From Amphibalanus amphitrite (Eukaryota > Arthropoda > Thecostraca > Balanomorpha > Balanidae), in contig NW_024883026.1 in assembly GCF_019059575.1 (NCBI RefSeq), positions 62,001 to 126,000 on the forward strand: a stretch of DNA of 64,000 bases, read 5' to 3'. The position numbers and the translations under genes are program-made. How positions within the stretch are numbered: the stretch's first letter is position 1; every line of letters starts with the position of its first letter. Under the pieces are notes generated by a model. That model ran no database searches, was not told where the DNA came from, and saw only the letters and a program-made list of their open reading frames with translations. Shown piece after piece: positions 47,901-53,900 of the stretch.

Positions 47901-50900
47901 GCCGCGCACGGACCGGCGCCCCATCCCAGCTCGGCTCTGAGGCTGATCCACACCGGAGCAGCTCAGCGGTTACAATCCCGACCCGGGCTGGCTCTGACAA
48001 TCGATATGAGGGCGGCGGGCGAGGATTGCCGCTGTGGCGCCGGCCGGGCCGGCCTCTCCGCTCGACCAGCTCAGCGCCCCGTGTGTCAGCCGCGCTGATG
48101 TCGGCAGGGTCACCGGCGCTCGCGTGCCGCTCTGTGACAGACGGCTCCGTCCGCCGGGTCTCGGGTCGGCTCCTCGGCAGTCTGTGATACCGCCGGCGGC
48201 ATTGATCAGCGCCGCTGCCGGCGGCGGGCGGGGGCGGCGATCCGGGCCCGCCGAGCCGCCGCTGACGTCACGCTGGCCACCCGGCGATCGACGCTCCAAG
48301 ACGGGCCTCCGCCGCACACAGCCGCTATTTGAGTTCGGAAGTGGCCAAAATGCGATAACTCGTTAACCAGTTGACATTTTGCCATGGAATTTTTATTATA
48401 AGTGAAGTAAACCTTAAAGTCACGTATGTGAACGTATGAGCATCCTGCTGATCCAGCATTGCCGTAAAAATATATTTGCTTGTAATCCGCGGATGACGGG
48501 TATATCCCATAACGTGGGTAACTCGGGAGGGGATTCTGCATAGCATCCCTGCTGTCCTCGAAACTACTCGTTCAATACTAAAAATTAAAACGGCTTCTGA
48601 TAGGAATAGCTGACAAACGAAACCTAACTTTGTCACAAAAGGTCATGGGTCACAAAAGGTCATGGAAAGGTCATGGGTCACAAAAGGTCATGGAAAAGGT
48701 CATGGAAGGAAATGCATACATTTTTAAGGCCATGCGACACATCTTTAATGGTCCATTTCGGCAAAAGCATCTAAAAATGATGTCATCTGGGTCGTCCGAT
48801 TCGAAACTATTTCCATTCGACAAATGAAGGTCAGGTCACGGCGAGGTCAAAAAGGTCAAAATTTGAAGTTGAGCATTCTCAACAAAAAAGACGTGCGTCA
48901 GATGCAATTTGAGCTCTGGAACACGATGATGCTATTCGTTTTGGTTTTCGATATCAAGAACGTACTGAAAGTGCCTTTGCAATATCGAAAATTATGTTAA
49001 CCGACTACGGTAAAATGCAAAAGCCGATAACATTGCCATTTCTGAAGATATCTGACTGAAACTTTCCAAAAGCAATGCAAATGTTACATACAAAAGCCAA
49101 TAAGGTTCATTCTGGTCGATGGCTGCTCCCCAAAACTCTGAATGTTATGAACCATATCGGACATTCTTACGATGTTCTGTTGGCTGGATGTCTTTTTGCT
49201 TTATTGAATTTGATCAGACTACATTTAGTTATGACGACGAACATTTATTGGTCACCAGAAAGTATACCCACAAGTCAATCGACAATCGACAACCAACAAA
49301 TGCAATCGACACGAGCGTCGAGCACCCCTCCGCACAAGCAACTGCCGGGGCGATTAGACGGACCGCGCTCCTCTCTCGCAGCTGATTGGTCAGCTGCCGA
49401 ACTGCACGGACGTCAGCTGCAAGGTCGGCGGCGGGGCGGCGACCTAGCGTCACTAGAACTGCAATAACTTTTGCCGGCAGTGTGATGCCGACCTAATTTT
49501 TTCAGCAAATGAATCACAATTGTACGGTATATGTTATGGACGTTGTCTCGATGTGAAGCACGCTGTGCGTTTTTTGGTAGGCCTATGTAAATATTGAAAT
49601 CCTCAAGCCCTTCTGCTTTGTGCAAGTGTGCAACAATTAGCGTACAATAACTGAGTGGGAAGTTTTTTAGATGTACTTTTGTTACCAATGGATTCCGCAC
49701 ATTTTCCCCTTTCAGCTGATATCTTACTTACATATTTTCAAGCAAAGAATATGACAGGAGACTCGTCAACATTTACATGAAAATCGCAGCACAAGTTCGG
49801 TCTCACGGAGCAAAACAAAACGGTGTACTTTGGGAGCCCTTGTTTGTTTGTTTATTGGGGCTTAAGGGCGCGCCGACTACAAGGTCATTTTGCGCCCATA
49901 ACTATATACAAGTAAAGCAAGTGTGTCACAAGAAAACCGACGTAATAAAAGGCTTAAAAAAGCCTAAAAGCTGGTTAAAAAGAGCAAAGAAGGGTAAAAT
50001 ACTCCAAGCGTATCGTAAAAGACAGCTGACTAGGCGTAAGGACTAGATTAGAATAGACGTATGGACTAGTTGGTTTGGTATCAGATCGAGTAGATTACTT
50101 GGAATTTGATTGAACGGATAAAGGAAAAGATGTTGCCAGATAAAACCCAGGGTGACTCGTCACCCAGCAAGTGGCGGACGGTGATATCCGGAGCGATGCG
50201 GCCCAGGTAGCGAGTCCGGTCCGGTTCCAAGCGTCGACAAGATAAAAGCACGTGGGCGACGGTGAGAGGCACGGCGCACCCGCCGCAAACGGGCTGCTCA
50301 TCTCCGCGGAGAAGGTGGCCATGCGTCGCATACGTATGACCGATGCGGAGCCTGCATAAAATCACTTCGTTTGACCTGTTGTCTTGCGAGCAAGACCTCC
50401 AATGCTCCAGAGTCGGCTTCACCTCTCGGAGCTTCCTGCCTCCACGCAGGCGCCACTCTGCCTGCCACTCCGTTAGAATAAAAGATCGTACAGCAGGGTA
50501 AAAATCACGCGCCGGCAATGGCAACCGACGAGTGCAGGGTGCTGCAGCAGCACGCCTTGCAGCCGCGTCTGCCAGCTCATTGCCATGAACGCCAACGTGA
50601 CTGGGAATCCAGCAGAACTGAACAGATTTACCCGATTGTTCTACTGACTGAAGCCGAGCTAAAATGTCTTGAACGATCGGGTCGGCTGGATTAAAACTCC
50701 GTAGGGCCAACAGGCTGCTTAGGGAGTCCGATAAAATCAAGTAAAAAGGTCCGTCCGATACCTCAATAAAACACAAAGCCTTCTCGATGGCAACAAGTTC
50801 CGATGAAAACACCGAGGCGAAAGATGGCAACGAAAATGAACGGGTATCGTCGCCAGCGACGAAAGAACAGCCCGCTCCCTCAGGTGTTTTAGAGCCGTCT

Positions 50901-53900
50901 GTGAATACAGGAATAAAACCATCGTAAGAGGCAAGGTGTTCCAAGGCTCGGACTCGTGCCTCTGCAGGCAGCAACTTGCCCTTTGGAACTGCAGAAAGCG
51001 AAAGATCCACCTGTGGACTGACACTTTTCCACGGTGGAGGGGGCGCAGCCCAGGTACGACGAACGTTACGCAATGCTATGTCAGCTATTGAAAACAGTTC
51101 TTTCATGCGCACTCCGAACGAGGGTCGTAACCTTCCGTTACATCGGGTGGCATGCCGTGAAAAAACGTATGGGTACGTCGGGTGCATAGGAAATTGGCGC
51201 AGTTTCAGCGCGTACCGCATACCCAACATCTGACGGCGGAGTGAAAGTGGCGGTTCATGCGCCTCAGCAAGAATGCTGCTCCTGGGCGAGGTGCGGAATG
51301 CTCCGGTGGCTACTCGGAGTGCTGCATGATGGACTGTATCCAGGACCCTCTTGCTAGATTCACTCGCTGAATCGTAGACAAAAGAAGCGTAATCTAGCTT
51401 CGATCGTACAATTGATCGATATAGAAGAAGAAGGGTCCTGCGGTCCGCACCATAAGATGTGCGGGCGACACATTTTAAAACGTTCAGGGATTTAAAACAT
51501 CGTTCCCGAAGCGTTCTAAAATGTTCTTTATACGTTAAACGACTGTCAAAAAAGATCCCAAGAAACTTCGCCACCGGACGAGTAGGAATCATCTGTCCAT
51601 AGAGCTGGATTCCCAAGGGAAGGTCGCCGCAGCGGCGGCGGCAAAAGTGCATAGCGACGGTCTTCGTTGTTGAAAAACGAAGACCGTTGTCTCGACTCCA
51701 TCTCTCCAACCGCGTCACTGCAAGCTGCAGCTGTCTGGCCATATGCCGAGCGCTTGAAGCGGCAAACCAAATGGCAAAATCATCCACGAAGAGCGATCTA
51801 CCGATCGAGACCGGCAGATCATCAGCGATGTCATTGATCGCCACTGCAAAGAGCGCCACACTAAGCACCCCGCCCTGGGGAACTCCGTTATCTTGGGTAA
51901 AACTGCTCGAAAGACTACTGCCAACTCGGACTTTGAACCGACGACCCGATAAAAAGTTCTTAATAAAGAGGCCCATCCGGCCGCGTATGCCGTACTTGTG
52001 TACTTTGGAAAGTATTCTGTGTCGTAACACTGTATCATAGGCCGCCTCAATATCAAAGAACAGTGCTCCAAGGTGCTTCTTTTCAGTAAAACAGGTGCGT
52101 ATCTCGGTGTCGAGGGCTAAAATGTGGTCAACAGGGCTGCGGTGCTTTCTAAAGCCGCACTGGGCGTTTGTAAAAACACCGTGATGTTCCAAAAACCAGC
52201 TAAGACGCACATTGACCATCTTCTCCATCAGCTTTGAAAGCGATGATGTGAGAGAGATGGGCCGATAGTGGAGAGGGTCATGTCCCGACTTGCCAGCCTT
52301 CAAGATAGGAATGATAGTGGCTTCCCGCCAGGTCTCAGGGAAAGTGCTAGTCTCCCAAAGCGAATTGAAAGTTGCTAGCAGCGCCTCGAGGGCAACTGCT
52401 GGGAGATGACGGAGCATGTCGTTGTGGACAGCATCCGGACCTTCTGAGACGCTGCGCAACGAGCTGATGGCAGACGTGAGCTCAGCCATAGAGAAAGGCT
52501 CATTGTACATCAAATTTTCAGCTGTGCTGAAGTCCACGGCGGCTGGTGCAGGTCGTGAGGACGGCTCTCCTCGGCAGCGCTGATAGAGTGCACGGCCTAT
52601 CGTCTCTGCGACGTCTAAAGGGTGGGATATGTCCGTGTTGTTCACTCTTAAAACCGGAAGCGGAACAGAGCTGAACCGGCCTTCAATGCGCTTCATGCGT
52701 GCCCATATCTGGGTCGTAGGAGTAAAACGGTTTAAGGAACTCACGTACGTGCGCCATGAAACAGCCTTTGCCTCTTTTAAAACGCGACGGGCAAAAGCCC
52801 GCGCTTTCTTAAAAGCGATGAGGTTCTCAGTAGTACTACTCCGGTCAAACTTTCTAAAAGCGCGCTTCCTGGCACGAATCGCATCTCCGCATTCCTTGGT
52901 CCACCACGGGACCGGAGGACGACGAGGCTGACTCGACGTCTTGGGTATGCACCCGTTTGCGGAGTCAATGAGTAAACATGTAAAATCCTCTGTAGACATC
53001 ACAGAGGGGTCGGCTCTGGATAAAACCGTGGCCTCTACGGCGGCCTGGAATTCGCCCCAGTCGGCCTTCCGAACATTCCACCTAGGTGGACGGTTGCCTG
53101 ACACTGGGGACTCCTGGTGCTCCAGCCACACTGGGAAGTGGTCGCTCCCGAGTGGGTCGTCATGGACGGACCAGGTAAAAAGCTGAGCTAGCCGCGGACT
53201 GACTAAGCTCAGGTCCAGAGCCGATGTTTGACCGGAGGGTGTTGTAAAATGGGTGCGCTGTCCTGTATTTAAAATACACAGCGCCTCATCGCGGATAAAA
53301 GATTCTAAAAGTCGACCACGAGTGCCAGTCGTGTCGCATCCCCACGCCAGGCTATGGGCATTAAAATCGCCGACTACCAGGACCGGAGGTGGAAGCTCAT
53401 CGACAAGTCGATGCAGCTCAACCACCGGGAGCGCTATACCTGGTGGTAGGTATAAAGAGCACACTGTCAGTTCCCGGTGGTTGAAATCAACTCTGGCGGC
53501 CACCGCCTGCAGAGGAGTCTGCAGCGGCACCTGGCGAGCAGGTACGCTGTGGTGAACCGCCAGAAGCACACCTCCATGGGCAATGGTAGGGGTGTCCAGG
53601 TCTCTTCTAAAAACAGAGTAGCCCTTGATGGCAAAGGTAACGTTTGGCGCTAGCTTGGTCTCCTGGAGACCTAAAACAAGGGGTGTGCGCCAACGGATAA
53701 GAGACTGTAGGTCCTGGTAGTTGGCCCGGAGGCCTCTACAGTTCCACTGTAGAATAAAAGGCGTGGTTAAAAAGGCGCAAAAAGGGCGCGTATAACATGA
53801 GGCAAAGGCGCACACAGATACCTGACTGACCACAAAAAAGGTAAAAAGCACCGAGAGAAATGCACCTGGTAAAAAAGCGCAATAGCGCGAAAAAGATAAA

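Follow-up and report, generated by a model that had tools for sequence, protein, structure and literature searches.

The question raised by this locus is why one five-letter word, TTTTA, is so frequent on the sense strand of the polymerase gene of a long interspersed nuclear element (LINE). The locus lies in a 64,000-nt stretch of the Amphibalanus amphitrite genome (contig NW_024883026.1, positions 62,001–126,000; hereafter the window, in whose coordinates positions are given). The LINE copy, truncated at its 5′ end, occupies 49840–55642 of the minus strand, as delimited by alignment with 20 other copies. In the initial annotation of the window, its second open reading frame (ORF2) was described as enriched in TTTTA independently of codon phase, and sites for RNA-binding proteins or a context-dependent mutation process were proposed as the reason. 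The analyses below point to selection on the word in the sense RNA, and the words probably constitute putative RNA-protein sites.

Excess of TTTTA in ORF2

By eye, about 37 TAAAA and about three of the reverse word had been counted on the plus strand of 50081–53851; the exact numbers are 37 TAAAA and 3 TTTTA. The whole open frame, read from 53932 to 50081, contains 40 sense TTTTA and 3 TAAAA. These 40 words compare with 11.1 (standard deviation (sd) 2.75, maximum 23) in 2000 shuffles preserving the protein and the codon use, and with 13.5 (sd 2.8, maximum 20) in 363 samples in which the dinucleotides were preserved too. The excess thus survived the kind of shuffling that had been named as able to refute it, and in the protein- and codon-preserving shuffles TTTTA was the top-scoring of the 1024 pentamers (z 10.3).

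The words are unevenly distributed over the codon phases: 2, 17 and 21 were observed at phases 0, 1 and 2, against 1.5, 2.7 and 6.9 expected. Phase independence was therefore a slight overstatement, in that two of the three phases are enriched and phase 0, which corresponds to TTT TAY (Phe-Tyr), is not. Within ORF2, the words are written via synonymous codon choice: 17 of the 25 TTA codons are preceded by TT, and 21 TTT codons are flanked by T and A. An amino-acid change driven by the word found no support, as the residues at the motif cores match those of other families at 0.37, compared with 0.39 for other Phe/Leu residues. The base following TTTTA is T in 13 cases, C in 11, A in 9 and G in 7, each being 3- to 4-fold enriched. 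A possible helical phasing of the words at 10.5 bases was also noted (R 0.33 versus about 0.13 expected), which was the highest value among the 12 periods tried except for that of period 3.

Related words did not share the strong excess. In ORF2, TTTTC (7 versus 9.3 expected, z −1.0), TTTTG (8 versus 8.1, z −0.1) and T6 (4 versus 3.7, z 0.2) were close to the null, CTTTA occurred 5 times versus 10.4, and ATTTA did not occur versus 4.8 expected, while T5 was mildly enriched (20 versus 12.0, z 2.5; 20 versus 15.1 with the dinucleotides preserved). These are the wrong words for an AU-rich element or an ELAV or poly(U) target, given the lack of ATTTA and of a T6 excess, and such a target was rejected. 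The word specificity fits a CPEB-type pentamer better than an ELAV site or an AU-rich element.

Position of the words along the transcript

All parts of the element lie on the minus strand. ORF1 (53933–55640), whose translation gives a putative cysteine-knuckle protein, ends with an in-frame TAG at 53935–53933. It is followed by a 183-nt spacer (53750–53932; 6 TTTTA), which is open in the frame of ORF2. The ORF2 frame with the spacer included (50081–53932; 40 TTTTA) encodes an APE endonuclease, a reverse transcriptase and an RNase H, and a 241-nt 3′ untranslated region (3′-UTR) with an (AACA)n-type tail (49840–50080; 6 TTTTA) completes the element. The word positions define an array of 46 sense TTTTA at 49946–53909, which extends from the 24th nucleotide past the ORF1 stop to about 106 nt short of the 3′ end.

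The initial annotation had stated that the gap between ORF1 and ORF2 and the 3′ region share the bias and that ORF1 does not, and the counts agree with it. In the window copy, the 6 words in the 183-nt spacer compare with 1.8 in dinucleotide shuffles (p 0.001), and the 6 words in the 241-nt 3′-UTR compare with 2.3 (p 0.005). When one representative was taken from each of the four other lineages described below, the p values were 0.000–0.006 for the spacer and 0.007, 0.010, 0.049 and 0.071 for the 3′-UTR. The density of the words peaks in these two parts, with 12 words in 424 nt. No TTTTA was found in the element's ORF1 in the window copy and the 20 other copies, two of which have a partial ORF1. 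Since only about 0.2 words are expected in this GC-rich frame, ORF1 shows no enrichment rather than avoidance. In L025, a full-length copy, 44 of the 45 words lie within the 4078 nt past the ORF1 stop, with one in the 5′-UTR and none in ORF1. The enrichment thus begins past the ORF1 stop and spans the spacer, ORF2 and the 3′-UTR.

Conservation of the words between lineages

The genome searched for other copies comprises 807.5 Mb in 2644 contigs. The 150 endonuclease matches listed, out of 1435 candidates, are all 98–100% identical in protein, which suggests a young and abundant family. The alignment set consists of the window copy and 20 copies (L009–L028) picked from these 150, mostly from the low-identity end; L001–L008 were left out of the analysis, as was L064, of which only 255 nt match. 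Five lineages, 16–25% apart in DNA, can be distinguished among the 21 copies by the 3′ half of ORF2. Divergence in the centre of the element is about 1–5%, a uniformity partly due to choosing the copies through the endonuclease, while average divergence is mostly 8–23% in the 3′ half of ORF2 and in the 5′ part of ORF1 (up to 29% between copies in the latter).

Comparison with other copies of the family, the second check that had been proposed, left the excess standing in the copies compared. Of the 40 words in the window copy, 25 occur in every one of the 21 copies and 33 in 19 or more; of the 16 that lie in the divergent 3′ part, 8 are common to all 21, and the number of words per lineage there is 11 to 16. 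The contrast between lineages was evaluated at third codon positions, the motif being defined on each lineage in turn. In the 5′ part, 0 of 970 third positions inside TTTTA differ (codon-matched expectation 34.3), while 436 of 11118 other third positions do; in the 3′ part, 62 of 519 differ inside the word (expectation 212.6), and 4928 of 12347 elsewhere. Within lineages, on the other hand, a copy departs from the majority of its own lineage at 11 of 3335 motif sites (0.0033 per site) and at 247 of 62070 other sites (0.0040 per site), rates that come from 17 copies of lineages C, D and E and include 11 events at the words. Because mutation after insertion appears normal and the words are nevertheless held in the lineages that go on transposing, this contrast points to purifying selection on UUUUA in the sense RNA, not to a mutation process. 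Thus, of the two readings offered in the initial annotation, the RNA-protein site is supported by the conservation test, and context-dependent mutation is strongly disfavoured as the main cause.

An additional copy, L065, was found via ORF1 rather than the endonuclease. It carries 39 words, compared with 8.9 expected. Against the five lineage representatives, its third positions differ at 1 of 500 motif sites and 385 of 5800 other sites in the 5′ part, and at 26 of 266 motif sites and 2160 of 6272 other sites in the 3′ part. The codons behaved in a corresponding way in comparisons with a conserved residue: TTA stays the same in 110 of 121 cases inside the word and in 32 of 74 elsewhere, and an NNT codon does so in 102 of 109 cases before TTT-A and in 1161 of 2316 elsewhere. 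On the five bases of the word, the divergence is 0.05–0.08, compared with a background of 0.20, for all positions, and 0.07–0.25, compared with 0.39, for third positions.

Other LINE families

The other LINE families of the same genome were represented by 30 endonuclease loci, which are the 30 best of 150 listed (2995 candidates), cover at most about the first 60% of ORF2 and are 30–36% identical to the present element in protein. Their TTTTA counts are within 2 sd of the nulls (for example, 2 versus 3.9, 0 versus 0.5, 2 versus 3.3, 5 versus 3.7 and 5 versus 2.4). Since 22 of the 30 loci, those with ORFs of more than 600 amino acids, group into 5 families, the array is absent from the part of ORF2 covered, about the first 60%, in five other LINE families. 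A clear excess was also lacking in three distant LINE contigs from records of bacterial metagenome-assembled genomes (24 versus 18.6, sd 3.1, in L059). Because neither these contigs nor the other loci show a clear excess, the array is general neither to LINEs nor to all LINEs here. Viral contigs were searched for relatives as well, and none were found there. Apart from this, two loci of another LINE family, L041 and L052, are mildly enriched in the reverse word (10 TAAAA versus about 5.5, sd 1.8).

A candidate reader of the words

We consider it probable that the words form an array of putative RNA-protein sites on the half of the transcript that follows ORF1. As the motif lies on the sense strand, is exact as a word and appears to be selected in RNA, the candidate reader of UUUUA is an RNA-binding protein, among which a CPEB/Orb-type protein with tandem RNA-recognition motifs (RRMs) is the likeliest, although we name it only tentatively. 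The tandem RRMs of CPEB1 and CPEB4 are described as binding specifically to UUUUA, a structurally defined pentamer (PMC9537309). The motif of Orb is given as UUUUA1-3U, with UUUUACU, UUUUAACA and UUUUAAGU as weak cytoplasmic polyadenylation elements (CPEs) (PMC8011179), and UUUUAU and UUUUAAU are given as strong forms (PMC3736149). In the host genome, eight matches to the CPEB ZZ-domain (CEBP_ZZ) were found on five contigs (C127, with 102 bits, C268, C1290, C678 and C133). The UUUUA core of the CPE is present in the element as 46 words with a word-specific excess and constraint.

The array would load many copies of such a protein onto the ORF2 half of the transcript, and the loaded protein may store, localise or protect the RNA ahead of retrotransposition. 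In the most complete form of this scheme, about 40 UUUUA would act as a silent-site code that recruits a host germline CPEB/Orb regulator, coats the bicistronic RNA past its first stop, stores or protects it, and couples the life cycle of the element to oogenesis. This form is conceivable from the sequence comparisons, but we regard it as doubtful.

Several observations weigh against the words being selected sites of a CPEB-type protein. The preference of the classical CPE for UUUUAU or UUUUAAU was not found, the next base being unselected. Neither was the location of CPEs near the poly(A) hexamer of the 3′-UTR, because only 6 of the 46 words are in the 3′-UTR and most are in coding sequence; moreover, the AATAAA at the end of the window copy is replaced by AATCAA or AATTAA in lineages B and E. 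The 3′-UTR excess is marginal in two of the five lineages. As for the conservation, divergence is only about 1–5% in the 5′ part of ORF2, so that the presence of sites there says little, and of the 16 words in the divergent part, 7 are variable among lineages, two of these occurring in only 2 of the 21 copies. Shared ancestry and recombination make the lineage comparisons non-independent, and hence the effect sizes rather than the p values carry the argument. By raw retention, TTTTA is 6th of 452 pentamers, and TTT is fairly stable outside the word also, giving a weaker contrast (260 of 334 kept, versus 108 of 121 inside). The footprint is imperfect: third positions 2–5 bases upstream show a divergence of 0.21–0.26 where they are well sampled, and one offset 18 bases from the word is also low (0.12). 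TTTTA is no more unpaired than other A/T-only words (unpaired fraction 0.56 versus 0.56), and RNA accessibility was rejected as a distinguishing trait. Lastly, the evidence comes from one family in one genome, and the other families sampled, at 30–36% identity, do not reach the range of 40–80%.

Alternative explanations

The start of the array behind the ORF1 stop makes a close rival of the proposal that it shields the ORF1 message from nonsense-mediated decay, a U-rich-binding protein of any RRM family coating the approximately 4.1 kb past that stop. The boundary of the array lies at this stop, with 44 of the 45 words of L025 behind it and the first word of the array at the 24th nucleotide, and a precedent is provided by the Rous sarcoma virus stability element and the protection of mRNAs with long 3′-UTRs by PTBP1 (PMC5580461, PMC4764554). 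The motifs of PTB are, however, described as CU-rich, unlike UUUUA (PMC6108849), and a word-free ORF1 is also expected from its GC-rich composition. We judge the shield to be unlikely, noting that it can overlap with the array of RNA-protein sites favoured above and differs from it in the action of the bound protein. The words may alternatively serve the element's own proteins, either ORF1p with its putative cysteine knuckles or ORF2p, as sites for packaging or cis-preference. They are dense over the RNA that carries ORF2, and the putative cysteine-rich knuckles of ORF1 are weakly similar to retroviral nucleocapsids. This is distinctly unlikely in our estimate, because the five related LINE families have no such array in the part seen, and the word is unchanged although the 5′ part of ORF1 is up to 29% divergent in DNA between copies; the confidence of an AlphaFold2 model of ORF1p was too low for it to be informative (mean pLDDT 38.7). 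Known packaging signals are compact, and a spread of words over 4 kb is unlike them.

A context-dependent mutation or editing of the sense strand that creates TTTTA would produce both the strand asymmetry and the single exact word. The ordinary rate within lineages (0.0033 versus 0.0040, with only 11 events at the words) nevertheless stands in contrast to the 0 of 970 and 62 of 519 between lineages, and mutation bias was rejected by this contrast; in addition, ORF1 is without the word, the 5′-UTR of L025 has one, and phase 0 is not enriched, so we consider this origin highly improbable. It is equally hard to credit that the words serve the DNA, as an endonuclease target TTTT/A or as a nucleosome or transcription-pausing signal. 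Some LINE APE endonucleases do cut at TTTT/A, and one of the 21 copies examined sits inside another copy. However, the insertion site of this nested copy is without TTTTA, and none of the 21 downstream flanks starts with AAAA, which a nick of this kind would leave, although the A's of the tail blur the first bases; the endonuclease target was rejected for lack of AAAA at these flanks. A role in DNA also gives no reason for 44 of the 45 words to lie past the ORF1 stop. The probability that the words are a by-product of the protein sequence, the codon usage or a host codon-pair bias is practically negligible. ORF2 is rich in Phe and Leu, and the mean of the null is already 11, but the null maxima of 23 (of 2000) and 20 (of 363) remain below 40 words, just as the initial annotation had argued that neither one amino acid nor one codon explains them. 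Furthermore, the 30 loci of other LINE families in the same genome are within 2 sd of the nulls, and the excess is also seen in the spacer and the 3′-UTR.

Structure of the element and its family

The window copy is flanked by a target-site duplication, GGGCTCCCAA, found by reading the sequence and its flanks, at 55641–55650 (upstream copy) and 49830–49839 (downstream copy) of the minus strand; its length is 8–10 bp, since the final AA is possibly part of the element. In full-length copies, a 5′-UTR of about 1010 nt and the ORF1 start ATG GAT lie upstream of the position at which the window copy is truncated. The Pfam matches of ORF2 (PF14529, 2.4e-20; PF03372, 3.8e-15; PF00078, 1.5e-30; PF00075, 9.1e-10) place the APE endonuclease, RVT_1 and RNase H in this single frame, and the domain order suggests an I-clade-like LINE. 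The Drosophila I factor has the same domain set. For ORF1, the Pfam search gave no family at 0.001 or above the cut-off; its putative CCHC zinc knuckles, whose cysteine pattern is visible in the translation, match nucleocapsid chains weakly (phmmer E 0.0055).

The translation of the endonuclease deserves a separate remark. ORF2 is in the same frame as the preceding ORF1 TAG, and its first ATG is residue 312 (window 52999), downstream of the endonuclease. The TAG is conserved in 21 of 21 copies (the window copy and L009–L028), and the sole ATG of the spacer is out of frame. Candidate routes are readthrough, re-initiation, a non-AUG start or splicing. The spacer is 97–100% identical across the 20 copies, with a frameshift in 3 of these, and the distant LINE contig L059 has the same arrangement of ORF1 TAG and ORF2. 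The 5′-UTR of full-length copies (e.g. L025 upstream of 1102) contains internal repeats approximately 170 nt apart and mostly 73–78% alike, which are perhaps promoter units.

L065 has the 3′ half of lineage E joined to a different 5′ part, which is up to 10% off in some endonuclease stretches. This join and the uneven divergence along the element point to recombination between lineages and a mosaic family. L064 has a related ORF1, and the first 255 nt of its ORF2 frame match, beyond which the copy consists of unrelated repeats with many CCCATGTGGG-like words. Among the 150 matches listed, 33 adjacent pairs are less than 30 kb apart, compared with about 0.8 expected by chance, and 31 of these pairs are on the same strand and 2 on opposite strands. 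On contig C359, seven of the matches listed occur in series on one strand within 85 kb.

Elsewhere in the window, an inverted self-match of 844 nt (98%) at 60731–61573 forms a hairpin-like repeat, and 57669–58064 matches 61574–61960 in inverted orientation (93%). A scan of the window for RNA families at gathering scores gave one tRNA match.

Relation to known systems and significance

The array can be compared with several known systems. The UUUUA pentamer is shared with CPEs as bound by the RRMs of CPEB1 and CPEB4 (PMC9537309), and CPEB ZZ-domain matches occur in the genome; what differs is that each RNA carries about 46 sites, that these are mostly in coding sequence, that neither U nor AU is favoured directly after them, and that no AAUAAA is conserved beside them. 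The multivalent PTBP1/MATR3 sites of mammalian L1 and L2 (PMC6108849) are likewise short RNA-protein motifs lying densely along the ORF2 part of a LINE. Those sites are described there as CT-rich, as particularly frequent in antisense L1 and as repressing host splicing and 3′ processing, whereas the present ones are UUUUA, lie on the sense strand and are constrained across the lineages of one family. The Rous sarcoma virus stability element bound by PTBP1 (PMC5580461, PMC4764554) resembles the array in lying past the first stop of a retroelement mRNA that extends far beyond this stop; it is one retroviral element with a different motif, as opposed to a pentamer scattered over 4 kb, and protection by the array would be by analogy. 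The Drosophila I factor is a LINE whose RNA changes its location in the oocyte along with gurken mRNA (Van De Bor 2005, as cited in PMC2980492), and the passage concerned describes no UUUUA array. Our literature search turned up no paper describing a conserved array of UUUUA in a LINE. As judged from these comparisons, RNA-protein sites in LINE RNA are of a known kind, and the word, the strand and the evidence of selection would be new here.

The finding amounts to measurable selection for a single RNA word of five letters, acting on synonymous sites in the polymerase gene of a LINE. It has a built-in control, namely ordinary mutation in young copies set against near-unchanged words in ancestral lineages, and the same test of copies against lineages can find RNA codes hidden in further mobile elements. 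The role of a cis-acting RNA code in the biology of LINEs is thereby made testable by silent recoding. If the reader is truly a CPEB/Orb protein, the array would tie a retrotransposon to the control of maternal mRNAs in its host.

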